Shown piece after piece: positions 5,962 to 22,897 of a stretch of 64,000 nucleotides of DNA (within the stretch, counting starts at the first letter, position 1; every line of letters starts with the position of its first letter). This DNA is from Halobaculum saliterrae (GTDB lineage: Archaea > Halobacteriota > Halobacteria > Halobacteriales > Haloferacaceae): NCBI RefSeq assembly GCF_009831625.1, contig NZ_WUUS01000006.1, positions 186,001 to 250,000 on the forward strand. The letters are read 5' to 3'. Made by a program: the position numbers and the translations under genes. The notes below the pieces were generated by a model. That model did not search any database. It saw only the letters and a program-made list of their open reading frames with translations, and was not told where the DNA came from.

Positions 5962-7155
5962 ATGTCAATCAACTCCGCAGTCGTCCTCGCGGCCGGCGAG
6001 GGCCAACGACTCAGACCGCTCACCAAGTACCGTCCGAAGCCGATGCTTCCGGCCGCGAACAGACCGATCCTGGAGTACGTCCTCGATGCTCTCATCGACG
6101 CCGGGATCGACGACCTCCACATCGTCGTCGGCTACGAGGCCGACCGCGTTCAGAACCACTTCGGGCCGACCTACCGGAACCGGACGATCACCTACCACAC
6201 ACAGGAGAAGCAACTCGGCAGCGGACACGCCCTCCTCCAGGCACGCGACGGCCTCGACGGCGACTTCCTCGTCGTCAACGGCGACGAGGTCGTCGATACC
6301 GAGACCGTCGCGGCCGTCGTCGACGCTCACTCCGCGGCGGATGTCTGCACGCTTGCCGTCGTCGAATCCGCGGAGGCGCCGCTGTACGGCGCCGTCACGC
6401 TCGAGGGGTCGACCGTCTCGGAACTCATCGAGAAACCCGGGACCGGTGCCTACCGGCTGCTCAACGCCGGCGTGTACGCCTTCGGCCCGTCGTTCCTCTC
6501 GACGGTCGAGGCCGTCGACCGCGCGGACGGCGAGCTCGCGCTCACCGACGGGATCGCCGACCTGATCGACCGCGGCGGGCACGTGCGGGGTGTCAGGGCC
6601 GACGGCCTCCACTCCGAGGTGACGTATCCGTGGGACCTCACGGCCCTCGCGAGCACGCTGCTCGCGGACGGCCGCGTGAACGAACCGGAAGCAGAACCCG
6701 GAGTGTACGTCGCCGACTCCGCGTCGATCGCGGAGGACGCCGTTCTGTACGGCCCCATCGTGGTGGGTCCGGACGCGGTCGTCGAACCCGGCGCCGTCGT
6801 CGGTCCCGACGCCGCAGTCGGGCCGAACGTCACGGTCGAATCGGGCGCGGTCGTCCGGCGGTCAGTTGTTGACACGGACACGCGCGTGGGCGCGAACGCG
6901 ACGCTCGTCGACTCGATCACGGGCCAGGGGGTCGAGATCGGCGCCGGGGCGACCGCGCCCGGCGGCCCGGCCGACGTGCGCGTCGGCGACCGCGTCCACG
7001 AGGACGAACGACTCGGGTGCGTGCTCGCCGACCGCGCCCGACTCGGCGGGGGCGCGACGGTTCGGCCGGGACTGCTCGTCGGCCCCGGCGCCGACATCGC
7101 GGCCGGCGTCACGCTCCACCGCAGCGTCGACGAGGACACGGAGGTGCAGGGCTGA
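5962..7155 (+). CDS. GlmU-like sugar-1-phosphate nucleotidyltransferase
   Basis: A 397-aa protein. The N-terminal nucleotidyltransferase domain (about 1-235) carries VVLAAGEGQRLRPLT, KPMLPAANRPI and the metal-binding VVNGDEV (residue about 110). The C-terminal half is a left-handed beta-helix of hexapeptide repeats (VVGPDAVVEPGAVVGP and similar), as in archaeal GlmU-type bifunctional enzymes. It should make UDP-GlcNAc or a similar UDP/dTDP-sugar; acetyltransferase activity is less certain because the helix is Val/Gly/Pro-simplified and lacks an obvious extended acetyl-CoA region. It overlaps glmS by one base (TGATG), so the pair is one operon from fructose-6-P towards amino-sugar nucleotides. 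A second, canonical-looking copy at 18570 is a pseudogene, so this copy may have taken over. Confidence 0.8.
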   Translation: MSINSAVVLAAGEGQRLRPLTKYRPKPMLPAANRPILEYVLDALIDAGIDDLHIVVGYEADRVQNHFGPTYRNRTITYHTQEKQLGSGHALLQARDGLDGDFLVVNGDEVVDTETVAAVVDAHSAADVCTLAVVESAEAPLYGAVTLEGSTVSELIEKPGTGAYRLLNAGVYAFGPSFLSTVEAVDRADGELALTDGIADLIDRGGHVRGVRADGLHSEVTYPWDLTALASTLLADGRVNEPEAEPGVYVADSASIAEDAVLYGPIVVGPDAVVEPGAVVGPDAAVGPNVTVESGAVVRRSVVDTDTRVGANATLVDSITGQGVEIGAGATAPGGPADVRVGDRVHEDERLGCVLADRARLGGGATVRPGLLVGPGADIAAGVTLHRSVDEDTEVQG

Positions 7156-8960
7156 TGTGCGGGATCATCGGCTGCGTCGGACACGGCGACGACACGCTCG
7201 ACGTGATCCTCGACGGACTGGAGACCCTGGAGTACCGCGGCTACGACTCCGCGGGCGTCGCCCTCGCCGACGAGGCCATCGACGTGGAGAAGAAGGAGGG
7301 CCGCCTGGAGATGCTCCGCGAGCTGATCGCCGGCCGCGACGTCCCGCCGGCCGGTCCCGTCGGCATCGGCCACACGCGCTGGAGTACGCACGGGCCGCCG
7401 ACGGACGCGAACGCCCACCCCCACACCGACGAATCGGGACGGGTCGCGGTCGTCCACAACGGGATCATCGAGAACTACCAGGCGCTGCGCGACGAGCTCG
7501 AAGCCGAGGGCGTCACCTTCACCAGCGACACCGACACCGAGGTGATCCCGCATCTGTTCGCGGCGTACCTCGACGCAGAGCTGGACCCTGAGGCGGCGTT
7601 CCGTCGCACGCTCGAGCGCATCGAGGGCAGCTACGCGATCGCGGCGGTGGTCGCGGGCGACGACCGGATCTTCGCGACCCGCAACGACTCCCCGCTCGTG
7701 CTCGGCGTCGGCGACGGCCGGTACTACCTCGCCAGCGACGTGCCCGCCTTCCTCGAGCACACGCGCGACGTCGTGTATCTCGACGACGGCGAGGTCGCGA
7801 TCGTCGACAGCGACGGGTGGGCGGTCACCGACCGCGACGGCGACCGCGTCGAGAAGGACGTCTCCACGGTCACGTGGAGCGCCGAACAGACCGGCAAGAG
7901 CGGCTACGACCACTACATGCTCAAGGAGATCCACGAGCAGCCCACCGCGCTCCGACAGGGGCTCAGCGGCCGTCTCGACGAGCTCTCGGGGACGGTCACT
8001 GTCGAGGAACTCGACGACGTGGGGACACCCGAGACGGTCCACTTCGTCGCCTGCGGGACCTCCTATCACGCGGCGCTGTACGGCGTCGAGCTGTTCCGCG
8101 AGGCTGGTATCCCGGCGCAGGCGTTCCTCGCCAGCGAGTACGCGACCGGCCCCGCGCCCATCCCTGAGTCCGGGCTCGTCGTCGGCGTCACGCAAAGCGG
8201 CGAGACGGCGGACACCCTTTCCGCCCTCCGCGAGGCGCAGGGACGGGGCGCCGAGACGCTCGCGCTCACGAACGTGGTGGGCAGCACCGCGGCCCGCGAG
8301 TGCGACCACGCGCTGTACATCCGCTCGGGCCCGGAGATCGGCGTCGCCGCGACGAAGACGTTCTCCTCGCAGCTGACCGCGTTGAACCTCTTGGCAGAGA
8401 CGCTTACGAACGGTGGGGTCAAGTCACGTGATCTCGTCGCCGGGTTGCGGGACGTTCCTGGTGACATTCAACAAGTACTTGACCAGACAAATGCCGAAGA
8501 AATCGTCGACAAGTACCTGAGCCACGAATCATTCTTTTTCATTGGTCGTGGGCAGAACTTCCCGGTCGCTCTTGAAGGCGCACTGAAATTCAAGGAGATC
8601 ACCTACGAGCATGCAGAGGGTTTCGCTGCCGGTGAATTGAAACATGGTCCACTCGCGTTGGTCACACAAAACACACCGGTGTTTGCGATCGTGACCGGCG
8701 ACGACGAACGCGCACGCAAGACCATCGGCAACGTCAAAGAAGTCGAGGCACGCGACGCCCCAGTGATCGCCGTAACTGACGGGAAATCCGATGTCGAACG
8801 GTATGCAGATCACGTATTGATGATTCCTGAGACTCACCCGCGGACTGCTCCGATGCTCGCAAACGTACAGTTGCAACTTGTTGCCTATCACATGGCTAAT
8901 CGACTCGGGCGCGCAATCGACAAGCCGCGTAACCTCGCAAAAAGCGTCACCGTCGAGTGA
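7155..8960 (+). CDS. glmS: Glutamine-fructose-6-phosphate aminotransferase (mosaic gene)
   Basis: 601 aa, the usual GlmS length. It begins MCGIIGCVGH with the N-terminal nucleophile Cys2, and has HTRWSTHGPP and HNGIIENY of the glutaminase domain (1-240), then two SIS isomerase domains (CGTSYHAALYG, TQSGETADT, ATKTFSSQ) ending in the conserved RNLAKSVTVE. The start overlaps the upstream stop by one base. It makes glucosamine-6-phosphate for amino-sugar nucleotides. The base composition changes abruptly at about 8380-8400 (residue about 410): line 8281-8340 is 45/60 GC, 8461-8520 only 26/60, without any break in the frame. The last third matches the low-GC cassette that follows, so this looks like a recombinant gene. 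Confidence 0.95.
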   Translation: MCGIIGCVGHGDDTLDVILDGLETLEYRGYDSAGVALADEAIDVEKKEGRLEMLRELIAGRDVPPAGPVGIGHTRWSTHGPPTDANAHPHTDESGRVAVVHNGIIENYQALRDELEAEGVTFTSDTDTEVIPHLFAAYLDAELDPEAAFRRTLERIEGSYAIAAVVAGDDRIFATRNDSPLVLGVGDGRYYLASDVPAFLEHTRDVVYLDDGEVAIVDSDGWAVTDRDGDRVEKDVSTVTWSAEQTGKSGYDHYMLKEIHEQPTALRQGLSGRLDELSGTVTVEELDDVGTPETVHFVACGTSYHAALYGVELFREAGIPAQAFLASEYATGPAPIPESGLVVGVTQSGETADTLSALREAQGRGAETLALTNVVGSTAARECDHALYIRSGPEIGVAATKTFSSQLTALNLLAETLTNGGVKSRDLVAGLRDVPGDIQQVLDQTNAEEIVDKYLSHESFFFIGRGQNFPVALEGALKFKEITYEHAEGFAAGELKHGPLALVTQNTPVFAIVTGDDERARKTIGNVKEVEARDAPVIAVTDGKSDVERYADHVLMIPETHPRTAPMLANVQLQLVAYHMANRLGRAIDKPRNLAKSVTVE

Positions 8961-9065: not shown

Positions 9066-9668
9066 TCACAGTTCTTTGACTACCTTAGCTGGATTTCCAG
9101 CGACGACAGTATTAGGAGGAACATCGTCAGTGACGATCGAACCGGCACCAACGACTGCGTTGTCGCCGATAGTCACGCCTTTCAGAATGATACTTCGCGT
9201 ACCCAGCCATGCGCTTTCACCGACCGTGACTGGACGCTTCTCGACGGCACCGTCGCCCACAGCGTGGACATCAGAATCACGGATCACGACACCAGGAGCA
9301 AGCGTGGCATCCTCTTTGAGGACGACCTCGGTCGCTGCGTAGATCTCACAGCCCCGATTGATGAATACGTCGTCGTGGACAGTGAGGCGGCCGGCCACTT
9401 TGAAAAACGTCGGCTGTCCCAGATTCCCGACGAGCTCTACCCTGTTGCCGAATACGACTTGTTCAGCCCCACTGTCAAGAAGCCGAACGTCGCCCCGGAT
9501 CTTAAGCCCCTCTCGGGAACCCGTGATTGTCTTCTTGTGTTTCCACAGAAAACGAGCCCCTGCAAGTCTCCATAGTACGTACCGTCCGCTCATCCGAACA
9601 GTCGCGCTAAAACCGTTTTCACGGTAGTACGTACGTGCCTTTGAGATGAGCGGATGCGACAACAACAT
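9066..9668 (-). CDS. Hexapeptide-repeat acyltransferase (WbbJ/LbH type)
   Basis: 200 aa. After an N-terminal amphipathic region come imperfect hexapeptide repeats (VVFGNRVELVG, LTVHDDVFINRG, ATLAPGVVIRDSD) and the classical C-terminal part with SAWLGTRSIILKGVTIGDNA, VVGAGSIVTDDVPPNTV and VAGNPAKVV, as in maltose/galactoside O-acetyltransferases and capsule acetyltransferases. The catalytic His usually found before the WxG segment corresponds to DSDVHAVG here. Likely role: O-acetylation of a surface-glycan sugar in the cytoplasm. First gene of the low-GC cassette; divergent from the flippase (97 bp between starts). The acceptor sugar is unknown. Confidence 0.8.
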   Translation of the reverse strand: MLLSHPLISKARTYYRENGFSATVRMSGRYVLWRLAGARFLWKHKKTITGSREGLKIRGDVRLLDSGAEQVVFGNRVELVGNLGQPTFFKVAGRLTVHDDVFINRGCEIYAATEVVLKEDATLAPGVVIRDSDVHAVGDGAVEKRPVTVGESAWLGTRSIILKGVTIGDNAVVGAGSIVTDDVPPNTVVAGNPAKVVKEL

Positions 9669-9734
9669 CTGTGTTCGCTCTATCGGCTCACTTGTTAAGT
9701 TCCTCGGGTGGTGTCAACACCTATTCTTCGGGGA

Positions 9735-9741
9735 GTATATA
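9735..9741 (+). promoter_or_regulatory. TATA box of the flippase gene
   Basis: GAGTATATACC lies about 28-31 bp upstream of ATG 9766, the standard spacing for a leaderless haloarchaeal transcript. This supports 9766 rather than the upstream in-frame ATG at 9646 as the start. Confidence 0.6.
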
Positions 9742-9765
9742 CCGCGAACACTAATACATCGCCAC

Positions 9766-11289
9766 ATGAGCGACGAAGGCCTTGGATCGATCTCCCGGAT
9801 CGTCTCCGGGTCTGCCATCATTTTCGCCGGCTCGATACTTCACAAGCTCATCGCTTTCGGCGGGAGCATCTTCATAGCTAGGGCACTTGGGGATACCGGC
9901 TATGGGATTGTGGTTGTCGCATTATCGATGCTGTTCGTCTTCGGGGAATTGCTGAATCTCGGAATGGGACAGGGTGTTTCACGAAATTATCCCCGTGCAG
10001 AAACGGATCAAGAACGACGAGGGATTCTCCTGTCGGCGCTTCAGTTGTCCATTATTCTGTCAGTTTTTGGTGGGGTCGGCGTGTTTCTCGCCGCCGAACC
10101 GCTGGCAGTTCGTGTGTTTAACGATCCATCGTTGATTCCTGTACTCGAGGTGGTTGCTGTGGTCGTCCCTCTCTACAGTCTTCGAAAAGTCTCGAATGGG
10201 GGGCTTCAGGCGGTGAAAAAACCGGCGGCAAAAGCCCTCATATCCAGTATATTCCAACCAATTGTCAGAATCGTGTTCATCGTCGTATTGGTAACTGCTG
10301 GCTTTGAGGCCGTAGGTGTCGCAAGTGCATACGTTGTCGCAACGGGGACTGCGGCCTTTCTCGCTCTCTATGTCGTCCACCGTGAGACAGATCTGTTCGC
10401 GATCGGCACTCCGGCGGCCCGTTCGTACCGTTCACTGTTGGCGTTCTCACTGCCGCTAGTTGGGTCTGCAGTCATTATGCGATTAATGAACAACGTCGAC
10501 ACGCTTCTTATCGGTACACTGCAAGCTTCGGCCGATGTCGGGCAGTATAATGTTGCGTTTGTGCTCGGACAGACAACACTTCTGTTTTACCAGACACTCG
10601 GGTTCATGTACGTCCCAGAACTATCTGAGTTGCACAAGGAGGGAGCAATAGACCAAGCGTCGATGATCTACCAAGCAGTTACAAAGTGGGTCGTTCTGGC
10701 TTCTGTGCCGTTTATCCTGACTGCTGTGGTGTTCCCGGAGACGGTCATTTCCCTCTTGTATTCAGAGATATATCTTCAAGCAACACTCCCGTTTCTGATT
10801 CTTATTGGCGGATTCTTGACCCACATCCTTGTTGGGCCGAACATCAACACGCTCACCAGTTTCGGGGATACTCGAGAGATCTTCATCTTCGATGCCGGAA
10901 CGGTCGGACTGAACATCGTCCTGAACCTCGTTCTGATTCCTCGATTTGGTATTGCCGGTGCTGCAACCGCGACTAGCGCATCGTACGTCGTTCGAAATGG
11001 TGTGATGACATGGTTCCTCCATCGGACATACGGCATCATGCCCTTCTCACGGCAGATGCTCTTGCCGCTCATCCCGACAGTACTGGTAGCCGGACTGTTG
11101 TGGTTCGTTGTTGAAGACAACTCAGTGCTACTGGTCATTGTCTCCGCGTTCGCTCTTGTTGCAACGACCACGCTCGGGTATCTCAGTAGCGGCATTGAGA
11201 AATCGGACATGATGCTCGCCGAGACAATCGAATCGCAAACAGGTATTGACCTCCACTACATCAGGCAGCTACACGATCGAATACGGTGA
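9766..11289 (+). CDS. Oligosaccharide flippase (Wzx/AglR-like, MATE_Wzx)
   Basis: 507 aa, a polytopic membrane protein with roughly 12-14 hydrophobic segments. It starts MSDEGLGSISRIVSGSAIIF, an amphipathic N-terminus leading into the first helix as in polysaccharide-transport proteins. Family features are the early FIARALGDTGYGIVVVALS and the mid-protein RLMNNVDTLLIGTL segment (Wzx helix 7 with Asn/Asp). It is predicted to move a dolichol- or polyprenol-linked glycan across the membrane. It is the only forward-strand transport gene of the cassette and has its own TATA box. Codon use is visibly less GC-rich than in the flanks, supporting shared recent history with its neighbours. Confidence 0.9.
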   Translation: MSDEGLGSISRIVSGSAIIFAGSILHKLIAFGGSIFIARALGDTGYGIVVVALSMLFVFGELLNLGMGQGVSRNYPRAETDQERRGILLSALQLSIILSVFGGVGVFLAAEPLAVRVFNDPSLIPVLEVVAVVVPLYSLRKVSNGGLQAVKKPAAKALISSIFQPIVRIVFIVVLVTAGFEAVGVASAYVVATGTAAFLALYVVHRETDLFAIGTPAARSYRSLLAFSLPLVGSAVIMRLMNNVDTLLIGTLQASADVGQYNVAFVLGQTTLLFYQTLGFMYVPELSELHKEGAIDQASMIYQAVTKWVVLASVPFILTAVVFPETVISLLYSEIYLQATLPFLILIGGFLTHILVGPNINTLTSFGDTREIFIFDAGTVGLNIVLNLVLIPRFGIAGAATATSASYVVRNGVMTWFLHRTYGIMPFSRQMLLPLIPTVLVAGLLWFVVEDNSVLLVIVSAFALVATTTLGYLSSGIEKSDMMLAETIESQTGIDLHYIRQLHDRIR

Positions 11290-11326: not shown

Positions 11327-12229
11327 TTACTCCATATATCCGAGTTCGCGAAGGCGCTCTTCTGCAGTGTCCATTGTGACTGTCTGATCTACCCCCCGTT
11401 CCCGGTCGTCAGTATTCAGTTCCAACCACTTTCGAACATCGAAGACAGACTCCGGCAGGTCACCTTTGACGCCTTCTGTGGCTGCAACCATCGCTCGGTT
11501 ACTGTGGACACCGCTCTCTCCATCGTCGATCCAAGAAACCCGGATACCGTGGTCTGAGAGGACGACCAACTCATCGGTTCGTTCCCGGACCCAGCCAAGC
11601 ATACTGTCGACGCGCTCGTAATACTCTCGCAACTTGGCCTCCCGCGTTGCGAAGGCGTGACCTGTCACATCAAGAACGTGGGAATGAACGCCTGCGATCG
11701 GTGTGTCGATATCCGTAATACCCACAATCCAGCCGAATTCTTTCCCCGTATTTCCCATCGTCCGCTGCCGAAGTTCCCGTTCGGTCATCTCACCATGGCT
11801 GACCTTTGACGCCCAACTCCAGGCCTCTGAGAGGTGAGTCGCATCAGCAATACCTGGCCAACCGAATACTTGACCAGTTTCGAACGCATGAGGAAGGTGA
11901 GTTCGGTGGATCTCCTGCCTGTGGCCTCGTTCTCGAAATGGTTTCCCGAGTGTGTTTCTCACCTTGTGTGGGAAGAACTGAGTAGCTTGGCTTGCGACCC
12001 GAAGAGCAAGCGAATCCCAGTCTGCGGCGTCACCAGTCACCTCATGTTCAGAGGGGTGGACGCCGGTTGCGACAGATGTCCAAACTTCAGGTGTGTACGG
12101 GTGGTCGGCCGAATAGGTGAATGTCTCCAGTGGCCCGCTATTTTCGAGCAGAATGTTTTCGCAGTCCCACCGACGCGCGAGAGCATAATCAGCCGCGTCA
12201 AGAGCAATGACGGCCAGTGTGTCAGTCAT
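11327..12229 (-). CDS. Alkaline phosphatase superfamily protein (PDE/NPP-like)
   Basis: 300 aa. The beginning VIALDAADYALARRW has the metal-binding Asp of the alkaline phosphatase fold, followed by TPEVWTSVATGVHPSEHEV, where the Thr after VW is the position of the nucleophile in nucleotide pyrophosphatase/phosphodiesterases. Later come GVHSHVLDVTG and VVLSDHGIRVS, with metal-binding Asp and His residues. No signal peptide is visible, so it is probably cytoplasmic. Members often sit in archaeal glycan clusters, where they may cleave a phosphodiester or phosphate/sulfate ester. Converges with the flippase (37-bp gap) and diverges from the HprK-like gene. The substrate is unknown. Confidence 0.75.
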   Translation of the reverse strand: MTDTLAVIALDAADYALARRWDCENILLENSGPLETFTYSADHPYTPEVWTSVATGVHPSEHEVTGDAADWDSLALRVASQATQFFPHKVRNTLGKPFRERGHRQEIHRTHLPHAFETGQVFGWPGIADATHLSEAWSWASKVSHGEMTERELRQRTMGNTGKEFGWIVGITDIDTPIAGVHSHVLDVTGHAFATREAKLREYYERVDSMLGWVRERTDELVVLSDHGIRVSWIDDGESGVHSNRAMVAATEGVKGDLPESVFDVRKWLELNTDDRERGVDQTVTMDTAEERLRELGYME

Positions 12230-12357
12230 GTGGAGGAGTGTCCCCGCGGGATACTTACGCTATTCGGTGTCTACGGGGCCGGTGAGACTGGGACTCAGAA
12301 CAGACCAGAATGCATATGTCCAGTGGAAAACGTTACTTGATAACAGAACTCTCTCGT

Positions 12358-13452
12358 ATGAACGTCTTCGACATATACGGGTATCAGCTCGGCATTGACG
12401 GGAGTACAGATGCATTAGATAAGCTCTCAAACGCGTATGGGTCTTTTTCCTCAACAGGAACCGATGTCGATATAAATTTACAAATATCCCAACTCACGCA
12501 ATCGTTGAGACACGAGCACAAGCTTGGCGGGGCAAAGCGGTTCTATGGGCGGTCCGAGGATCGGTTTACCCTCCGTGATCACGCCAGTACAATCGCCGTT
12601 GATGAGGATTGGACTGAAGTTGCGTGTTCGTCCAAGGCTTCAACGTCAACGTTGACGACACTCCTCGAGGGGCAGCTCAGGCAACAACTTGCGCCGGAGG
12701 GAAAGGCGATGATTCACGGCTCAGGTGTCCGGTATGAGGGAGAGACGCTTCTCTTTCCCGCGTGGCGTCATACCGGGAAGACCAATACGATGCTGAGTTT
12801 CGCCGTCCGAGGCGGTGACTTCCTGTCTGATGACCGTCTGTTCGTGGACGAACGTGGGATGGCCCACAGCTATCCGATGCCGATTAATCTCCTTCAGTAT
12901 AACCTCCGTGCGTTCCCAGAGCTGCTTGCCCGGAGTAACTTCGAACGGTTCAAAGATAGGCTGAGTATGGCCCTCGCTAGTCAAACTGAGGGGATGCCGG
13001 AGCACAGCTTTGTGCGAGGTGTCCTCGATTACCTCAATAACCATGTTATCAAAGACTCATATAAGTACCACCCGTCAGATCTCTTCGAAGATATTGTGAC
13101 GATCCCGCAAGAGACCCCGATAGACAAGCTCGTTTTGTTGGAAACAACGGAGTCTGATATCGATCACTGCCGTATCGAACCAATCGAGGCGAAAACAATG
13201 GCCCGCATACTGGGTTCAATCACTGACTTCGAATGGAATACGACACTCCATGACACGTATAGCGCGTACGACATGCTGTTCCCAGAACGGGACGGGCTAA
13301 CGGACCAGCTCATGCAACTGCGTTCTCGTGAACGCGAAGTGTACGAAGCCGTGGCCGAAACCGCAGACGTGTATCGGCTTCAGGTTCCCGAAGAAGAAGA
13401 GTGGAGCAGAGAAACCCAACAGCGAGTCGTCGAAACGACGATCGGCGTTTAA
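12358..13452 (+). CDS. HprK-like/PEPCK-fold ATPase of the glycan cassette
   Basis: 364 aa from ATG 12358 (MNVFDIYGYQLGI); ATG 12310 would extend it by 16 residues. The middle holds GSGVRYEGETLLFPAWRHTG, then KTNTML, then DFLSDDRLFVDERG, the layout of HPr-kinase/PEPCK-like P-loop domains: Walker A, a Walker B-like SDD, and YPMPINLL. The P-loop is AWRHTGKT, so the first Gly of the canonical GxxxxGK(S/T) is Ala, a deviation worth checking. Proteins like this recur in haloarchaeal surface-polysaccharide clusters with unknown substrates; phosphorylation of a sugar or protein is inference. It ends 5 bp from the converging fusion gene. Confidence 0.65.
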   Translation: MNVFDIYGYQLGIDGSTDALDKLSNAYGSFSSTGTDVDINLQISQLTQSLRHEHKLGGAKRFYGRSEDRFTLRDHASTIAVDEDWTEVACSSKASTSTLTTLLEGQLRQQLAPEGKAMIHGSGVRYEGETLLFPAWRHTGKTNTMLSFAVRGGDFLSDDRLFVDERGMAHSYPMPINLLQYNLRAFPELLARSNFERFKDRLSMALASQTEGMPEHSFVRGVLDYLNNHVIKDSYKYHPSDLFEDIVTIPQETPIDKLVLLETTESDIDHCRIEPIEAKTMARILGSITDFEWNTTLHDTYSAYDMLFPERDGLTDQLMQLRSREREVYEAVAETADVYRLQVPEEEEWSRETQQRVVETTIGV

Positions 13453-13457
13453 GCCTC

Positions 13458-15302
13458 TCAATCGGGCGACACTGCCCCTGCTCTGTGGGAAACTGCCTGC
13501 ACAATCGCAGGCAACTCGCCTGCAATCTTTCGTCCCCAAACCGCAAACGTCTCAGGGATCGTGATAAGCGAAAGGCTCGTGGGATATGAATAATTCACAC
13601 TGATTCTGTGTTGCAAACCAGCTGGCAAGTGGCGAACGATAGTCACCGGGTCCATCCCAACCTGTTCGCCGTATCGTGTGAGTTCCTCAGTCGTGATTCG
13701 CGCGAACGGGGAGTCCTGTAGAAACAGTCGGTCTACGGCAGTGTCAATGTCGCCGAACGTGCGCACGCCGAGGGTCAGAAGAAAGTTCGTCGGATCAATA
13801 AACGGTGAGCCTGCTGTCGCCGCGTACTCCCAGTCGATTACACCAGTAATTCCCGTATCATCGACAAACACGTTCACCTGATTGAAGTCCCCGTGTACGA
13901 CCGTTTCGAAGCTCGATATCGGTTCCGGGGGCGCAGGAACCTCGATACCGACGGTGCTGTTAGAGAGGAATTCTTGTACCTCTGTTGGTGTCCGCTCGAT
14001 CTTGTGCTCACAATACGGTTGTTGGAGACGAGCGATCCAGTTGAGACCCGTCCGTAACACCCACTGGAATGACCCAGGGGACCGTTTGACTCTATTACGA
14101 AGTTGTGTTCCTTGGACCTGTTGTTCAGATCGGGTATTACCAAACTGTGTCTCTATCCGCGTTCCTGTTGGAAGAGTCCCAGTAATCTCGTCATTTGTTG
14201 AGCGAACGTACTCCAAGGTCTCCTGTTCGCGGTTGTTGAACTGCTCATACGTCGTGACGTTGGGAACCTTATATATCCGGTCAGCCCCGTCGGTAGAGCT
14301 ATCGAACAGCGTGGAACGGTATCGCCCTCGGAGAATCAGGCCACCCGACAAGTCTGTCGTTGTTGGTTCTCTCTGACGGGAGAAGACAAGTAGGTATCCG
14401 GGTAGGGCGTATTGAAGCAGTCCCAGACGGCGAAGTAGTGTCAATATCTGTTTGCCTGCCCGTTCTGTGATAGTCCGGGCAGTCAACTCCAGCGTCTGGA
14501 ACCGTCGCATCTCGTCTCGTTTTGTCGGGTCGAGCGCGTAGTCCGGACAACTTGGACTCGGGTACAGGCCATATGCTTTGGCGATCTGGAGGGTTTTAAT
14601 TGGCCCTCCGTTCCCATGGAGCGCTCGCTGAACAGACCGAAGACGACGGACGCTGTCAGCGACCCCGTCTGCCTGGATCACACCTTCTGTAAGGACGAAC
14701 GCCGTTCCTCGTTTTGAGAGGAGTGTATCGATCGTCGAGAACAAACTGAGGCGATCGACGTCATCCCGAAGGCTCGCTAAATCAGCCACAATCGTATCAA
14801 ATGTTCCAGGAGCGAGTGGGACCTCTGACAGCGATCCATGGATGGGAACGACGGAATCTGTCGGCAGATCAGTTCGGTTCGAAAGAATCCGAAGTCGGTC
14901 CACCGACTGTCCAAGAGCCACGACAGACTCACACTGCTCCGCTAGCAAGCCTGTCCGACGACCGGTTCCGGCAGTGATGTCCAAGCATCGTCCGGTGAGA
15001 AACGGACCAACGAACAAGCGCCAACAGTCGCGACCATATTCGAATAGTTCGGCGACCACTGAGTCAAATTCTTCACCCCCCAGGCTACTGGTCTCGACTG
15101 CGTTGCGAAGCGATGTGCGCTCTGTTTCTTCAGCGAGATCTCGGTACAAGGGACACGTCTCATCCTGCTGTCGAAACGATAAGATTCCACTCCGTCGCGT
15201 CGGGGCCCAACCGCACTCACAGCCCGTAGTTGCGTCTCGAATCAGCCCGCAACACTGTGGGCAAGTGAGCAATGGCACTTCCTGAGAGGAATATCGTGTC
15301 AT
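13458..15302 (-). CDS. Zinc ribbon-SAM methyltransferase-APH-like kinase fusion
   Basis: 614 aa with three parts. Residues 14-31 have CPQC and CEC of a treble-clef or zinc-ribbon motif. Residues about 80-300 form a class I methyltransferase (LDITAGTGRRTGLL at 107-120 as SAM motif I; IVADLASL as motif II-IV). Residues about 320-600 are an aminoglycoside-phosphotransferase/choline-kinase-like domain: IYKVPN (beta-3 Lys), a following Glu-rich helix, HGDFNQVNVF (catalytic loop, HGDxxxxN) and VIDWEYA (metal-binding Asp). The architecture parallels WbdD, the methyltransferase-kinase that caps E. coli O-polysaccharide; that parallel is by domain order, not proven homology. Its place in a glycan cassette suggests phosphorylation and methylation of a sugar chain. 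It lies 3 bp upstream of no gene on its strand; the GT2 ends at 15306. Confidence 0.75.
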   Translation of the reverse strand: MTRYSSQEVPLLTCPQCCGLIRDATTGCECGWAPTRRSGILSFRQQDETCPLYRDLAEETERTSLRNAVETSSLGGEEFDSVVAELFEYGRDCWRLFVGPFLTGRCLDITAGTGRRTGLLAEQCESVVALGQSVDRLRILSNRTDLPTDSVVPIHGSLSEVPLAPGTFDTIVADLASLRDDVDRLSLFSTIDTLLSKRGTAFVLTEGVIQADGVADSVRRLRSVQRALHGNGGPIKTLQIAKAYGLYPSPSCPDYALDPTKRDEMRRFQTLELTARTITERAGKQILTLLRRLGLLQYALPGYLLVFSRQREPTTTDLSGGLILRGRYRSTLFDSSTDGADRIYKVPNVTTYEQFNNREQETLEYVRSTNDEITGTLPTGTRIETQFGNTRSEQQVQGTQLRNRVKRSPGSFQWVLRTGLNWIARLQQPYCEHKIERTPTEVQEFLSNSTVGIEVPAPPEPISSFETVVHGDFNQVNVFVDDTGITGVIDWEYAATAGSPFIDPTNFLLTLGVRTFGDIDTAVDRLFLQDSPFARITTEELTRYGEQVGMDPVTIVRHLPAGLQHRISVNYSYPTSLSLITIPETFAVWGRKIAGELPAIVQAVSHRAGAVSPD

Positions 15303-15305
15303 TAA

Positions 15306-15863
15306 TTAAAAATTGAGAACGCCTTTGAGAAGACTTGGGGCATACTGCGGATATCTGACACAGAGATATGCAGTTGCCTGTAGTGTTTGAAGTGTTCCCT
15401 GCCCAACCGACTCGTGCTCTTCGTGATGAATACTGTCTCTGGGAAGCCCGCGGAGTTCTAGGCCCTTATTGAGTGCGTGAAGACAGAACTCGGTGTCCTC
15501 CATGTGATTCAACCGTTCGTCAAACCCGCCAAGTGATTCGAAGACTTGCCGTGACAGGACGAAAAACCGAGTCAGCAACAGCCCAAAGTCGAAGTCCTCT
15601 AAGCCGATGACCAGGCCTTGGCGGGCCTCACGAACGTGTTGCCAGAAGAACGATTCTTCGAATGTGATATCATCATCACAGAAGACGAGAATCTTACCGT
15701 CGGTTTGCGCCGCCCCGAGATTCCGTGCTTCCGCCCGATTCCCTTCGGACACAACTGCTGTTTCAACGGTGTCTGGAACAGACTCGAGTGTAATTGGGTC
15801 CGGGTCAAGCGTCGGAATCACCACCGAAACCTCCTCTGGAGAGATCACGCGTTCATTCGACAT
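15306..15863 (-). CDS. Short glycosyltransferase family 2 protein
   Basis: 185 aa from ATG 15863 (MSNERVISPEEVSVVIPTLD); a TTG at 15875 is less likely. The GT-A fold is recognisable: VVIPTLDPDPITL, then GNRAEARNLGAAQTDG, then ILVFCDDDITFEE with the DxD metal-binding motif, and GGFDERLNHMEDTEFCLHA (the ED acid/base region). It is shorter than most GT2 enzymes (about 230-320) but contains the whole catalytic core. It probably adds one nucleotide-sugar residue on the cytoplasmic face. It overlaps the GT4 gene upstream by 11 bp, so translation is coupled. Donor and acceptor are unknown. Confidence 0.8.
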   Translation of the reverse strand: MSNERVISPEEVSVVIPTLDPDPITLESVPDTVETAVVSEGNRAEARNLGAAQTDGKILVFCDDDITFEESFFWQHVREARQGLVIGLEDFDFGLLLTRFFVLSRQVFESLGGFDERLNHMEDTEFCLHALNKGLELRGLPRDSIHHEEHESVGQGTLQTLQATAYLCVRYPQYAPSLLKGVLNF

Positions 15864-16977
15864 TGTCGTTGACAATTCGCTGGAGGTGCATCTCCAAGAT
15901 TTCTGCCTGTCGGTCCCAAGTGAATTTCTCAGACACCTCCCTGCTCACTCGGCCGAACCGCTCCCGGCGAGGCCCGTCACCAAGCAGGCGATCCAATGCC
16001 TCAGTAAGCCCATTGACGTCGCCTGGGGAGACGAGATACCCGTTCTTTCCCTCAGTAACCTGCTCTGCGATCGCGTTGATATCGGTGCTGACGATTGGCT
16101 TACCGGAAGCTAGCGCTTCGAGGTTAACGACCGGGAATCCTTCATGATACGATGGTAGACAGAACACATCGCACGCCGCGAAGTACTGGTGGATCGCTTC
16201 ATGTTCGACAGCACCGGTAAACCGGACACAATCCGCAATCCCGATGTCGTGTGCGCGCTGTTCGAGTTCAGCTCTTAATGGACCATCGCCAACGATATAC
16301 AAGACAGCCGGGCTCACAAGCTGCGCATATGCGTCGAGGAGATCGGGTACCCCTTTCCCATCCTGCAAACGACCAACGAACATCACGATGGGATCGTCCT
16401 CCGTCACTGCAGGCTTCACATCGGGGTTGAACTGGTCCCTGTCTACAGATGGGTAAACAATTCCATCGACGGAGACACCAAGCCAGTCCTCGGCACGTTG
16501 TTTTGTGTCCTTGCTAGTAGCGAGATATGAGTCAGGCTGAGCAAATCGGCCCATCAGCTTCCACCGGATCGACGAGTGCCTGATTCCCGGAATGTGAAAC
16601 ACGTTCGGCACAGAGAGCGTTCGGGAGAGAAGGAGATTATCCAGGTAGTAATGTGTTGAAACGATATCTTCTCTGTTGAGAGCATCACGTACATCACTCC
16701 GCAGTACGTTCCAAAACATCGACAGCGATTCAACTTCGGCCGACATGAGGGGCGTGTAACTACACACTCGCTCGTTCAATCGACTTTCTTTGGGGATCAA
16801 GTCGACTTGGACGATGTCAGCATCCATCCGCTCGACTTCCGGGAGGATATTCCCAGTCCCTGTGTACAGGGTGATATCGTGACGACCGGTGAGTTGTTTT
16901 GTCAGCTCCCGAACGACGGTCTCGGTACCGCCGCTGTTTGCGAACCCGACTCTCGGGGAGTAGATCCCGATGTTCAT
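15853..16977 (-). CDS. Glycosyltransferase family 4
   Basis: 374 aa, starting MNIGIYSPRVGFANSGGTET. The start is supported by a 4-bp ATGA overlap with the upstream gene's stop. GT-B fold: N-terminal Gly-rich loop SGGTETVVREL, and a C-terminal donor domain with FVGRLQDGKGVPDLLDAY, YIVGDGPLRAEL, and EGFPVVNLEALASGKPIV carrying the EX7E motif. A retaining transferase using a nucleotide sugar; substrate not predictable. Middle of the three-gene reverse operon GT4-GT4-GT2. Confidence 0.9.
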   Translation of the reverse strand: MNIGIYSPRVGFANSGGTETVVRELTKQLTGRHDITLYTGTGNILPEVERMDADIVQVDLIPKESRLNERVCSYTPLMSAEVESLSMFWNVLRSDVRDALNREDIVSTHYYLDNLLLSRTLSVPNVFHIPGIRHSSIRWKLMGRFAQPDSYLATSKDTKQRAEDWLGVSVDGIVYPSVDRDQFNPDVKPAVTEDDPIVMFVGRLQDGKGVPDLLDAYAQLVSPAVLYIVGDGPLRAELEQRAHDIGIADCVRFTGAVEHEAIHQYFAACDVFCLPSYHEGFPVVNLEALASGKPIVSTDINAIAEQVTEGKNGYLVSPGDVNGLTEALDRLLGDGPRRERFGRVSREVSEKFTWDRQAEILEMHLQRIVNDNVE

Positions 16978-18128
16978 ACTTCTTCCTCTGCAGGGTCGGA
17001 TCCCAGCTGGTGATTCCGATGCCACTCCGTGATCAAACTGTGCAAGCGAGTGTCGAACGTCGTCAAAGAGAACGGCTCCACCCGTGATTTTGAAATTGTA
17101 AGTGGTGCTCGTTTGTGTCTGTGTATCGCGTCTACGATGCCGTCAGCACTGCCATCATGAAGATAACCATTGACCCCCTCTTCGACGAACACGCCTTGAA
17201 ACCCCTCGTTACGTGTTAGTACGGCTTTTCCACTCGCGTTAGCCTCAATCGGTACAATACCGAAATCCTCGTTGCGACCGTTAAACACGACTGCAGTACA
17301 CGTTGCGAGCAATTCCAACTTCCGTTCTTCGGAGACAAACCCTTCATAATACATGTTTCTTGACCCTTCTATCTGATCGACTACTGATTGATCCACGTCA
17401 CCACGGCCACCGACAAATCGAATCTCTTCGTTCGACTGTTCAAAGGCTTTCACAATAGCCAAAACCCCCTTTTCATTGTCCAACCTTCCAAGATGCAGGT
17501 AGAACCCCTCATCCCCCTCATTACGGTACTTTTCTAGCGGAACCGGTGGATACAGAATGTGTGCTTCTCGATCGTAGTATTTGCGCAGTCGTCGAGCAAT
17601 AATCGGACTGTTGGCAAAGTAGTAGTCGACACGGGGATCTACCGTTACGTCTCGTGTTCGGAGGTGTCTGATGAGTGGCCGCGACAGCAATCCGAGTAAA
17701 GAATCTTTCCGGTCGTGGTACAGGTCATAGAACCACCGCGGAGGGGAGTGGCAGTAGTTGATGTGCAACACGTCATCAGGTGTGATCACAGCGCGAGTAG
17801 TCGCTCCCGATGTAATGAGTACGTCCGGATGGCCATACTCGCGCCAGTCGACATCCTCCCACAGAGAATACTCGAATACACGGTCGATCCGCGACTGGAA
17901 TCGCCGTATGCTAGGGAATGACAGATCTACAGTCACGTCATAAAACGAAACATCACCGTAAGGATTGGGGCCCTCCGGAGAGGGGACTCCGACGGTATAG
18001 ATCTGATCGACACCTAGTGTCTCTGCCATTTTGGTCACAAGGTATTCCGCCCCACCCCAAGCGTTGACGTGCCAGTGGGCAAGTGCCACGTCAAGTTCAT
18101 CATAGCCCACAGCCGGCCCGTCTTCCAT
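16974..18128 (-). CDS. Glycosyltransferase family 4 (second)
   Basis: 384 aa from ATG 18128 (MEDGPAVGYDELDVALAHWH); an upstream in-frame ATG at 18215 would add 29 hydrophobic and basic residues and cannot be excluded. The N-terminal domain has NAWGGAEYLVTKM, and HINYCHSPPRWFYDLY resembles ALG11/mannosyltransferase-like GT4 members. The donor domain has LHLGRLDNEKGVLAIVKAF, VGGRGDVD, and EDFGIVPIEANASGKAVL (the EX7E motif). First gene of the reverse operon and the last gene of the low-GC cassette. It probably builds the surface glycan together with the two transferases downstream. Confidence 0.88.
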   Translation of the reverse strand: MEDGPAVGYDELDVALAHWHVNAWGGAEYLVTKMAETLGVDQIYTVGVPSPEGPNPYGDVSFYDVTVDLSFPSIRRFQSRIDRVFEYSLWEDVDWREYGHPDVLITSGATTRAVITPDDVLHINYCHSPPRWFYDLYHDRKDSLLGLLSRPLIRHLRTRDVTVDPRVDYYFANSPIIARRLRKYYDREAHILYPPVPLEKYRNEGDEGFYLHLGRLDNEKGVLAIVKAFEQSNEEIRFVGGRGDVDQSVVDQIEGSRNMYYEGFVSEERKLELLATCTAVVFNGRNEDFGIVPIEANASGKAVLTRNEGFQGVFVEEGVNGYLHDGSADGIVDAIHRHKRAPLTISKSRVEPFSLTTFDTRLHSLITEWHRNHQLGSDPAEEEV

Positions 18129-18569
18129 ACGCGACACGTTTCGTAGGAGTGAGAAAAGTACCATGGTTAACCGCCCCGTTGTCATTGGTCCGACATGAAT
18201 CGCTTGCATAAGCACCTCCGGTGAAGTACCCTCAATGGTTCGGCGTAGAAACAGATCGTACTGGACGTTGTGCGGTTTGAGCTATACAACTAATTGCACT
18301 TCTACTATTAATTGGCGAGTTGCTTTATTCTTGTATACGACCGGGGTGAACCTGGCCGGTTGTGAGCGCTACTAAGTTTCAACCGTCCAATAACACAGCT
18401 GATTACGTCCGGTGTTGTCCATAAGTTCGGATCGTACTCCCGCTATATCGGTATCTCAATAGTATCTATTTCACTACTACTATACGTTATTCCGATATCC
18501 TCCACCAAGCCAGATCCGTGTCGTCCCGCAGCCACAACCGATTTGCATCGGCCGGCGATGGCACTATCC
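18129..18569. other. AT-rich right border of the low-GC cassette
   Basis: This noncoding stretch contains runs such as ACTATTAATTGG and ATACGTTATTCCG and is the most AT-rich part of the window; composition returns to high GC at about 18510. It must hold the promoter of the reverse glycosyltransferase operon (TATA candidate TGTATAGC on the minus strand near 18285). CGGTTG and CAACCG (about 18357 and 18381) form a weak stem. No attachment site, tRNA or transposase remnant is visible. Confidence 0.55.
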
Positions 18570-19781
18570 ATGCAGACCGTCATCCTCGCCGCCGGCTAGG
18601 GAACGCGGATGCGTCCGCTCACCGACCGCCGCCCGAAGCCGATGCTGCCCGTCGCCGGCAAGCCCCTCTCGGCCCACACCGCGGAGGCCGCGGTCGCGGC
18701 CGGCGCCTCCCGGCTCGTGATCGTCGTCGGCTATGAGGCCGACGCGGTCCGCTCGTACTTCGGCGACGAGTTCGACGGCGTCCCGTGGCGTTCGCCGAAC
18801 AGTCCGAGCAGCGCGGCACCGCCGACGCCGTCCGCGCGGGGGCGGCCCGGCTCGACGACGGCCCGTTCGCCGTGCTCAACGGCGACGCGCTGTACGATAC
18901 CGAGTCGCTGGCGACGCTGTACGAGTCGGCGCCCGCCGTCGGCTCCTACCGGGTCAACAATCCGAGCGCCTACGGCGTGCTGCACGCCGAGGGGACCGGC
19001 GACGACGTCCGTGTGACGGGCGTGACCGAGAAGCCCGCCGACCCCCCGTCGGATCTGATCAACGCCGGCGCGTACGTCTTCCCCGCCGAAGCCCAGGGAT
19101 GGCTCGACGTGGGCGAGAGCGAGCGCGGCGAGCTCGAACTCACGGACGTCCTCGAACGTGCCTGCGCGGAGATGGATGTGCGTGCGGTCCCGTTCGACCG
19201 CTGGCTCGACGTGGGCCGACCGTGGGAGCTGCTGGCGGCCAACGAGTGGAAGCTCGACGAGCTGGAGCGCCGGATCGACGGCGAGGTCCACGCGGACGCC
19301 GATCTCCGCGGCGACGTCGTCGTCGAGGCGGGCACCGAGGTCGACGCCGGCGTCGTGATCGAGGGACCCGCGCTGATCCGGTCGGGCGCCAGCGTCGGGC
19401 CGAACGCGTACGTGCGCGGGCGAACACTCTGAATCGAACGCGTCGGTGGGCCACAGCGTCGAGGTGAAAAACAGCGTACTCATGCAAGGGGCGACGGTCG
19501 GGCACCTCTCCTATGTCGGCGACAGCCTCCTCGGACGGGACGTGAACTTCGGCGCGGGGACCACGGTCGCGAACCTTCGGCACGACGACGCGGACGTGCG
19601 GGCGCTGGTGAAAGGGGAACTCGTGTCCACCGGTCGTCGCAAGTTCGGCGTCGTCTGCGGTGACGGGGTGAAGACGGGCATCCAGACGAGCCTCAATGCG
19701 GGCGTGAAGCTGGGGACGGACACACGGACCGGTCCGGCCGAGCGCGTGTTGCGCGATCGAACCGAGGGCGCCGATAACTGA
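18570..19781 (+). pseudogene. glmU: glmU-type nucleotidyltransferase pseudogene
   Basis: Read across three frames this is a complete bifunctional sugar-1-P nucleotidyltransferase/acetyltransferase of archaeal GlmU type: MQTVILAAG, then RPLTDRRPKPMLPVAGKPL, NGDALYDTE, and a hexapeptide-repeat C-terminus with VKNSVLMQGATVGHLSYVGD, FGAGTTVANLRHDD and GVKTGIQTSLNAGVKLG. There are three lesions. The signature GAGEGTRMRP has TAG for GAG at 18597-18599. A 1-nt deletion near 18785 shifts GVPVAFAEQ out of frame. A second frameshift near 19430 follows VRGRTL, before ESNASVGHSVEV. High GC, like the backbone and unlike the cassette. The intact but more divergent paralogue at 5962 may provide the activity. 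Three independent lesions make sequencing error unlikely. Confidence 0.85.
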
Positions 19782-20117: not shown

Positions 20118-20263
20118 TTTATAAGGTCCGATGTTGGTTATGTGCGTACCCCTACCCATGGTGACAGCACATAGTCCCCCCCGCCAAGTCCGCTTCGCGG
20201 GCGTTCTGGAGCAGGCTTGGGAGATCGGTGTTGTCGCCGCTTGCAGTGCGACTCAGACAAACC
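20118..20263 (+). promoter_or_regulatory. S-layer gene promoter and long 5' leader
   Basis: TTTATAAG at 20118-20125 is a near-consensus archaeal TATA box. With the usual spacing of about 26 bp, transcription should start near 20145, leaving a leader of about 115-120 nt before ATG 20264. Long leaders are known for the S-layer mRNAs of Halobacterium and Haloferax, whereas most haloarchaeal messages are leaderless. The leader contains CCGC-TTC-GCGG, a short perfect hairpin, at about 20190. Confidence 0.65.
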
Positions 20264-22897
20264 ATGACAGAAACTAACGACAAGATCCGCGCGCTGTTCC
20301 TGACAGCGCTGATGGTGTTCAGCGTCTTCGCTGGCACTGTCGCGTTCGCAGGGACGGCCGCTGCGGCGAACTCCGTCAGTGGAGCGACGTACTCCACTGA
20401 CCCGGTCAACGAGAGTTCGTCGTTCAACGGCGAAACGGTATCGGTCACGTTTGACGACGTGACAACGGACGATGGTGACACGGACACGTTCCACGTCAAC
20501 ATCCCGAACAGTATTGCTCAGGCTGGCTCGCTCAGCGTGAGCTCGGCCACTGTCAACGGTGACAACGGCGACTACTCCGCCAGCGTCTCCAGTAACCCGG
20601 TCGACGGGCAGGACGGTGACGGTGTCGCCGACACACTCCGCGTCACGACTGGCACCGACAGCGGTGTCCAGAACGACACGGTGACCGTTACGTTCACCTA
20701 CTCGTTCAGCACGCCTGCTGTCACCACTGCCACGGATTACAACTACCGCGGTACTGTCCTCGACAGTGGCGGCAGCGACATCGTGCTGGCGGACGCAGGT
20801 CCGGACCTGACGGTCTCCAACACTGGTCAGGACAGGTCGGCTGCCGACACAGTTGTCAACTCGAGCAACAACAACACGCTCGTCTGGGCAGGCCAGGTTG
20901 TCGGTACTGACGAGCACAGTGCCAACACCCAGGTTTCGCTCCGCCGTGTGACCGACTCCGGTTCCACGCTCGTCTCACAGAAGACCGTCAACAGTGACGG
21001 CTTCGTGACGTTCAGCACGGACGGTCGTCAGACTGGTGACTACTTCATCACTGGCGATAACAACCGGGTTTCCTTCGAGCTGACGCAGCAGGAGATCTCG
21101 GTCGACTTCAGCGCCGACTCGGTCGACAACTCCGGTCCGAGCGACTCGGTCGAGGTCGACTTCGAGGCTGACTCCAACCGTGCGCAGTACACCCACGTGC
21201 TCGAGGCCGAGTACCAGGGTGACGCCGTCGACGCGTCGACGCTGCAGGACATTCTCGGCGGTGCCGGTACCGTTGAGGACGTCGACAGCGACGACGCCGA
21301 CGAGCTGACCGTCGCCGGCTCCGCGGAGGACGCCTTCACGGCGAACTTCTCGGGCGTCGACGCGGGCAACTACACGATCACCTCGACCGTCGAGGACACC
21401 GGCGTCTCCGACTCCGCCAACATCACGGTGAACGATGTCGGCGACGGTGAGGCTGAATTCGAGCAGGGTAACATCGAGGTCGCGCAGGGTGACGTCGCGG
21501 AGATCAACGTCTCCCTCAGCGGCAACGCTGACACCGCGACGGTCGTCATCGGCAGTCTCGAGGACGACGGCTACCAGGCCAACGTCTCCGTGACTGACGA
21601 GGACGACGACGACGAGGTCACCATCGAGTTCAACACCTTCTCGGCTGGCAGCAGCAGTCTGGGTACTGTCGTCTCCGCCACGGGTGACGACACGGTTGAA
21701 TTCGACAGCAGCTCTGACCAGGAGACGATCTCCGCGATCCTCTCGACTGGTGAGTACACGATTGCGACGAGCACGGCGTCCGACGCGCAGACGACGCTTG
21801 ACTCGCCGCAGGACATCGGCACGATGTTCATCGCCGAGCGCTCCACCGACAGCATGCAGCTGTGGACGGCGCCCAGCGCTGCCGACCTCGACGCTGACGG
21901 CGAAGACGGCGTCGAGGAATCCGACATCGCGTCGCTCATCGAGGACGGTGCCGTCACGCAGGACGACACCATCACGGCCGGCGACTACGTCGTCCACCAG
22001 GTCACCGCGAGTGGCCTGGAGGGCGCTATCGCCGCAAACGGTAACCTCAGCGCCGCTCTCGGTAACGGCGTCAACGTGACCGTTGAGCAGACGAACCCGA
22101 TCCAGAACCGCGACCCGAAGGTCATCAACCTGACCGACTCGGGTGACGCCGTCACGCTCGTCGAGGGCGACGGTGCCTACTACATCGCGGTCAACACCGG
22201 CGACAGCGACCTCAACGTCTCCCGCAGCGGGAACGACGTTTCGCTGAGCGACGGTGACGAGTTCGAGGCTACCTTCACGGTCGACAGCGCACGCCTGCTC
22301 GGCTCCTCCGACGAGGAGGACCAGGAGTCGGTCAACGCGACCTTCGAGGTCGAGTCGGCCGACACCTCGCTCGACAGTGACCCCGTGAACGTCACGGCCG
22401 CTGACGAGCAGCAGATCACCGGCACGACCAACTACGCGCCGGGGACCGAGCTGACCATCCGCGTCCGCTCCACGGACAACACGCAGCCGCGGTTCTTCAA
22501 CACGGAGACCGTGACTGTTCAGGCTGATGGCAGCTTCAACGCCTCGTTCAACTTCGCGGACCAGTCCGCGGGTGACACGTTCACCGTGACCGTCCGCCAG
22601 GGCGGCACGTCCGTTGTGAGCGCCGACGGCAACGTTGTCGAGAGCGTGGCCACGCCGACGGCCACCGCCACGGAAGGCACGGAGACGGCAACCGCGACGG
22701 CAACGGCCACGGCGACCGCGACGGCCACGGCCACGGAGACGGCGACGGCCACCGCGACGGCCACCGAGGCTGACGAAGGCGGCATGACGACGACGGAGTC
22801 GACCGAGACTTCGACGTCGACGCCCGGCTTCGGCGCCGTGCTGGCAGTCATCGCCCTCATCGGCGCTGCGCTGCTGGCAGTCCGCCGCGACAACTAA
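20264..22897 (+). CDS. csg: S-layer glycoprotein with PGF-CTERM anchor
   Basis: 877 aa. ATG 20264 gives MTETNDKIRALFLTALMVFS, an n-region and hydrophobic core ending at AFAGTAAAA, a Sec signal peptide. The mature part is acidic, rich in Asp/Ser/Thr/Val with few Lys, and I count about sixteen N-X-S/T sequons (for example NES, NDT, NSS, NNT, NFS, NYT), consistent with heavy N-glycosylation. A Thr/Ala-rich linker (TATATATA) suited to O-glycosylation precedes STPGFGAVLAVIALIGAALL and RR, the PGF-CTERM tripartite signal processed by archaeosortase A. The artA gene is the next gene. Length and layout fit haloarchaeal S-layer glycoproteins (about 800-900 aa). It is the probable acceptor for glycans made by the genes at 1.5-18 kb. 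Confidence 0.95.
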   Translation: MTETNDKIRALFLTALMVFSVFAGTVAFAGTAAAANSVSGATYSTDPVNESSSFNGETVSVTFDDVTTDDGDTDTFHVNIPNSIAQAGSLSVSSATVNGDNGDYSASVSSNPVDGQDGDGVADTLRVTTGTDSGVQNDTVTVTFTYSFSTPAVTTATDYNYRGTVLDSGGSDIVLADAGPDLTVSNTGQDRSAADTVVNSSNNNTLVWAGQVVGTDEHSANTQVSLRRVTDSGSTLVSQKTVNSDGFVTFSTDGRQTGDYFITGDNNRVSFELTQQEISVDFSADSVDNSGPSDSVEVDFEADSNRAQYTHVLEAEYQGDAVDASTLQDILGGAGTVEDVDSDDADELTVAGSAEDAFTANFSGVDAGNYTITSTVEDTGVSDSANITVNDVGDGEAEFEQGNIEVAQGDVAEINVSLSGNADTATVVIGSLEDDGYQANVSVTDEDDDDEVTIEFNTFSAGSSSLGTVVSATGDDTVEFDSSSDQETISAILSTGEYTIATSTASDAQTTLDSPQDIGTMFIAERSTDSMQLWTAPSAADLDADGEDGVEESDIASLIEDGAVTQDDTITAGDYVVHQVTASGLEGAIAANGNLSAALGNGVNVTVEQTNPIQNRDPKVINLTDSGDAVTLVEGDGAYYIAVNTGDSDLNVSRSGNDVSLSDGDEFEATFTVDSARLLGSSDEEDQESVNATFEVESADTSLDSDPVNVTAADEQQITGTTNYAPGTELTIRVRSTDNTQPRFFNTETVTVQADGSFNASFNFADQSAGDTFTVTVRQGGTSVVSADGNVVESVATPTATATEGTETATATATATATATATATETATATATATEADEGGMTTTESTETSTSTPGFGAVLAVIALIGAALLAVRRDN

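Follow-up and report, generated by a model that had tools for sequence, protein, structure and literature searches.

Recombination inside the glmS gene of Halobaculum saliterrae, linked to a low-GC cassette of glycan genes, is well supported by a stretch of 64,000 nucleotides from this genome (assembly GCF_009831625.1, contig NZ_WUUS01000006.1, positions 186,001 to 250,000), hereafter called the window. Low-GC DNA very probably recombined into a high-GC block comprising glmU1, glmS, glmU2 and an S-layer-type gene, with the left crossover within glmS and the right one before glmU2. An initial annotation of the window had proposed that glmS is a mosaic marking the left edge of an exchanged cassette. 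Here we describe the composition step in the gene, the cassette behind it, the gene order and phylogeny of relatives, and the relation of the locus to known genomic islands.

The step inside the glmS reading frame

The glmS frame is uninterrupted over 601 codons (7155-8960, forward strand), and its product matches the protein family TIGR01135 over its full length (profile positions 1-607) with 731.8 bits, as compared to a cut-off of 418.05. Within this frame, two parts and a junction can be distinguished:

7155..8393, forward strand: glmS 5' part, codons 1-413, of host-like composition; GC3 about 0.94, codon-usage LLR +179 towards host genes
8394..8960, forward strand: glmS 3' part, codons 414-601 and stop, cassette-like; GC3 0.60, codon-usage LLR -75 towards cassette genes
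8382..8412, forward strand: putative recombination junction in glmS; GC3 changepoint at 8394, mismatch changepoints at 8391 and 8375, codon-usage switch at codons 406-413

GC3 remains at about 0.94 up to codon ~410 and then drops to 0.60; in windows of 30 codons it ranges from 0.87 to 1.00 up to codon ~420 and from 0.47 to 0.77 downstream. A binomial changepoint model of GC3, with 1000 permutations and 70 other glmS copies as null, places the best changepoint at codon 414, position 8394 (2-lnL support 8382-8412). The LLR of 50.9 at this site compares with maxima of 9.3 in the permutations and 9.2 in the other copies, none of which harbours a comparable internal step: the GC3 difference between the 5' and 3' parts is 0.34 in the window gene and at most 0.09 elsewhere. 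A classifier trained on the codon usage of the window's host genes versus its cassette genes switches from host-like to cassette-like at codons 406-413. The initial annotation had put the step at about 8380-8400 in an intact frame and named sliding-window GC and codon-use plots as the check; both turn within glmS as predicted, and a step shared by relatives, which would have spoken against a mosaic, is excluded by the other 70 copies.

The comparison set contains one genome per species, and congeners therefore are species other than that of the window; genomes are referred to by handles. Nucleotide mismatches of the window gene increase stepwise at 8391 in the comparisons with G003 and G002 and at 8375 in those with G008 and with a sister genus, while for G006 and G001 the best mismatch changepoint lies elsewhere. 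Control comparisons among the relatives yield smaller steps. Because the GC change itself accounts for part of the mismatch step, the latter supports the junction without being fully independent. The breaks in GC3, in codon usage and in nucleotide divergence all lie at ~8375-8412. At the protein level the evidence from sequence comparison is modest, and the composition evidence appears to bear the main weight: compared to G003, divergence is slightly raised in the 3' part (10%, and 7.8% in the 5' part), and window-specific residues are not significantly enriched in the 3' half (p 0.33).

The similar protein identity to relatives in both parts of glmS is what would be expected if no DNA had been transferred, and a local shift of mutation bias or codon selection had altered the last third of the gene. 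This explanation is hardly credible, however, given that the step is confined to about 30 bp, is unique among 71 copies and passes directly into about 9.6 kb of genes that relatives lack at this place. Gene conversion from a paralogue was a further candidate, as the genome does contain two other full-length glmS genes. Yet the 3' parts of these paralogues are only 52-53% identical to that of the window gene and have a GC3 of 0.89, which refutes them as a source and leaves gene conversion with next to no probability.

The low-GC cassette and its right edge

The low-GC segment consists of the last third of glmS and about 9.6 kb of glycan genes on its 3' side. The cassette is located between the conserved flanking genes glmS and glmU2 and comprises eight genes, most of which belong to glycan-type families. 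All eight have a GC3 of 0.54-0.60, whereas most flanking genes are at 0.85-0.95; the 3' part of glmS shares the codon usage of the cassette. Sugar epimerase genes, a TrmB regulator and glmU1 are located on the left of glmS and have host composition throughout, and to the right of the cassette follow glmU2, an S-layer-type glycoprotein gene and further host-like genes. The features of the locus outside glmS are:

5962..7155, forward strand: glmU1, archaeal GlmU-like sugar-1-phosphate nucleotidylyltransferase (Pfam NTP_transferase and hexapeptide; GC3 0.89)
9066..9668, reverse strand: hexapeptide O-acetyltransferase-like protein (Pfam Hexapep; NCBIfam acetyltransferases below cut-off; GC3 0.58)
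9646..11289, forward strand: polysaccharide flippase of the Wzx/MOP type (Pfam Polysacc_synt, 1.5e-24; longest ORF, the start may be later)
11327..12229, reverse strand: type I phosphodiesterase/nucleotide pyrophosphatase-like protein (Pfam Phosphodiest, 8.4e-09)
12310..13452, forward strand: 380-aa protein without Pfam or NCBIfam match
13458..15302, reverse strand: methyltransferase-phosphotransferase (APH-like) fusion (Pfam Methyltransf_25 and APH)
15306..15875, reverse strand: short GT2-like glycosyltransferase (weak Pfam GT2 matches, below cut-off)
15853..17025, reverse strand: GT4-type glycosyltransferase (Pfam Glycos_transf_1, 2e-43)
16974..18215, reverse strand: GT4-type glycosyltransferase (Pfam Glycos_transf_1, 3.4e-19)
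18491..18590, no strand: right edge of the low-GC segment (GC changepoint LLR 59.4; best estimate 18549, about 20 nt 5' of the glmU2 start)
18570..19781, forward strand: glmU2 pseudogene (TAG stop in frame at codon 10; deletions of 1 bp and 2 bp)
20228..22897, forward strand: S-layer-type glycoprotein gene with PGF-CTERM (Pfam DUF7827 and PGF-CTERM)

The end of glmU1, whose best NCBIfam match is Arch_glmU (below its cut-off), overlaps the start of glmS. The 380-aa protein, which may resemble HPr-kinase-like proteins, has patchily distributed relatives in haloarchaea: of 392 genomes of the order, 18 contain one, counting its own genome, and the best match elsewhere has 36% identity. For the fusion protein the count is 23 of 392, again with its own genome, and the best match elsewhere has 37%. 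Near the fusion gene in other genomes only a flippase recurs often, and a collinear module that travels as a whole was hence not supported in this sample.

The low-GC state runs through the entire cassette, and its right changepoint at 18549 lies slightly beyond the end at about 18510 given by the initial annotation. No evidence of homology was found at the right junction. The glmU2 lesions were called by aligning the sequence to the undamaged copies in G003, G006 and G002. The same genome has an intact homologue, with 81% identity to the G003 gene, on another contig (G000:C1:463842-465053) in a high-GC stretch without glmS, and therefore, the window copy is probably dispensable. Since glmU2 is also damaged in G008, which has no cassette, its decay need not stem from the insertion.

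In bacteria, the known target region of the transposon Tn7 is directly behind glmS, the very position of the cassette, and insertion of a mobile element that targets the 3' end of glmS might be invoked. Such an element would have inserted behind the stop codon, but the boundary is about 570 bp inside the gene; moreover, there is no transposase or integrase among the cassette proteins scanned with Pfam and NCBIfam, and no notable repeats pair the two edges of the segment. As the locus thus shows none of the hallmarks of a Tn7-like element, assignment to this group was rejected, and this origin is extremely improbable. Homologous recombination, on the other hand, fits the left side, given the open frame, the position of the junction just behind a conserved ATKTFSSQL stretch, the common codon usage and the absence of repeats at the edges and of genes for mobile elements. 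The identity between high-GC alleles and the low-GC allele of G001 is ~0.82 in 20-codon windows starting at codons 386-391 and ~0.57 in windows starting at codons 411-416, and thus, the junction coincides with the point at which homology is lost.

The two edges might also be artefacts of assembly, if sequences of two organisms had been joined inside glmS and again before glmU2. The genome is a draft (3.78 Mb, 21 contigs, 2.17% estimated contamination), which leaves some room for this explanation. Yet it requires two misjoins, of which the first would have kept the glmS frame intact, and the assembly contains neither a spare native 3' end of glmS nor another low-GC 5' fragment; we consider it very unlikely. 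The glmS genes of the genome amount to three full-length ones and one partial match to residues 1-198, and accordingly, no native 3' fragment has been left over.

Gene order, phylogeny and the probable history

This glmS is found in five of the ten other Halobaculum genomes, with 82-92% identity. In three of the five (G003, G006 and G008) glmU1, glmS and glmU2 are contiguous and no cassette is present; glmS and glmU2 are also adjacent at several sister-genus loci. In G002 about 1.5 kb of high-GC unassigned DNA separates the two genes, and in both G002 and G008 the N-terminus of the S-layer-type gene is kept behind glmU2. The initial annotation had suggested that the adjacent glycan genes were swapped. 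Relative to these cassette-free species, however, they are an addition, and acquisition fits better than a swap. Among 46 loci, seven (window included) have a GC content in the 4 kb behind glmS that is at least 8 points below that of glmS itself; a low-GC stretch at this place is thus not unique, while the step inside the gene is.

Further loci show other arrangements. In G002 (L036 1-4000) cassette-like DNA occurs on the left side of the glmU1-glmS block, where a stretch of 54-56% GC that includes a GT4-like gene reaches nearly to the start of glmU1. In G112 (L204 8957-13463) an intact glmS is followed by other DNA and then by an incomplete duplicate of its 3' end that begins at codon 430 (654-bp repeat, 94%) and may be left over from recombination in the corresponding part of the gene. 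In G113 (L212 6354-10787) some 2.7 kb of other DNA splits glmS between about codons 255 and 276.

The glmU1-glmS region of G001 has a low GC content over its whole length, as against 64-65% at three other loci of this genome. The low-GC region spans at least 35 kb (L037, L042, L286), and glmU2 is located about 23 kb upstream of glmS. G001 therefore lends some weight to the reverse direction, in which a low-GC glmU1-glmS-cassette locus was resident and DNA of a high-GC strain replaced everything to the left of codon ~413. This is improbable: the glmU2 and S-layer side is host-like as well, and together with the cassette-free order in three congeners this makes a high-GC resident block the simpler assumption.

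With a high-GC resident block, the locus would have evolved as follows. A Halobaculum ancestor would have carried glmU1, glmS, glmU2 and the S-layer gene as a high-GC block. Incoming DNA from a near, low-GC lineage, with a glmS allele followed by a surface-glycan cassette, would have recombined, presumably in a single event rather than several, by a left crossover at codons 406-420 (8382-8412) of glmS and a right exchange in the short spacer before glmU2. The outcome would be an intact chimaeric glmS and, close to the S-layer gene, a newly gained set of glycan genes of about 9.6 kb, which probably altered the cell-surface sugar.

Separate phylogenies of the two glmS halves, also proposed at the outset, bear out this history in part. 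When the tree of one half is imposed on the other, AU tests reject it (p 0.023 or less), yet the window allele does not move between clades: in both halves it clusters with G003, G006 and G001 in an intrageneric clade, and part of the conflict comes from G002 and G008. The window branch is longer in the 3' half (0.113 vs 0.053 in the 5' half, protein), and the branches of G003, G006 and G001 are not. Homologous recombination within glmS, as originally suggested, draws its support from the break in composition, codon usage and divergence inside the gene, and is qualified by an unsampled donor and a window allele that remains in its clade.

In G002 and G008 (L007, L009) the 3' halves of glmS are sisters (94-98% support) and differ in 11% of residues, while the 5' halves are not sisters and differ in 20%; this is perhaps another exchange inside the same gene. 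A search of 170 family genomes and plasmids at the DNA level found no donor of the cassette. Because the 3' half still falls among Halobaculum alleles and the window allele stays in its clade, the glmS sequences suggest that the donor was probably a near relative, congeneric or nearly so, with a low-GC locus. A common source with the low-GC G001 allele was considered and gained no support, as composition-neutral third-position differences to it are not lower in the 3' part (0.23 vs 0.19).

Relation to known islands and biological meaning

At bacterial O-antigen and capsule loci, flanking genes such as gnd are mosaic. The analogy drawn by the initial annotation is apt in the sense that the locus works like these: the crossover that moves the cassette lies in a flanking housekeeping gene. 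It extends no further; the H. saliterrae locus differs in its archaeal S-layer context, its anchor gene and its unsampled donor.

Homologous recombination at surface-glycan islands has been reported for aquatic bacteria and Haloquadratum (PMC4033161, PMC4535781). Replacement flexible genomic islands of this kind include fGI1 of Haloquadratum walsbyi (Lopez-Perez et al. 2014, PMC4033161), and they share with the present locus a surface-structure cluster between conserved genes and a recombination trace in a bordering gene, here a glycan cluster and glmS. In that study strains of one species carry different clusters at the same place; here other species are compared, three of which lack any cluster between glmS and glmU2. 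A haloarchaeal S-layer/glycan island with recombination breakpoints, determined by RDP4 from population-level data, is likewise similar (PMC4535781). In Haloferax, variable N-glycosylation clusters undergo within-gene recombination, mostly within a clade, which involves aglB, aglD, aglJ and S-layer genes (PMC5867893). None of these three reports mentions glmS as an anchor or otherwise, and literature searches for glmS with archaeal islands and for Halobaculum S-layer glycosylation returned nothing relevant. In its behaviour the locus resembles the flexible genomic islands transferred by homologous recombination that have already been reported in Haloquadratum, and the mosaic glmS with its cassette is a new, unusually clear case of this known island type.

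Recombination inside a gene is a known microbial route to surface change, which is seen here with unusual sharpness: within an archaeal housekeeping gene the crossover is narrowed down to about 30 bp, and it is linked to a cassette for surface glycans. Tentatively, the glmU1-glmS(-glmU2) block beside the S-layer gene might be a recurrent docking site for glycan cassettes in the Haloferacaceae, where glmS would provide the homology arm and low-GC glmS alleles would form a pool that moves together with the cassettes; if the block is such a general anchor, population genomics could test this directly. Haloarchaeal surface glycans have been proposed to affect virus sensitivity and mating (PMC5867893), and scars such as that in glmS would therefore allow asking how often, and via which anchor genes, archaea change their coat.
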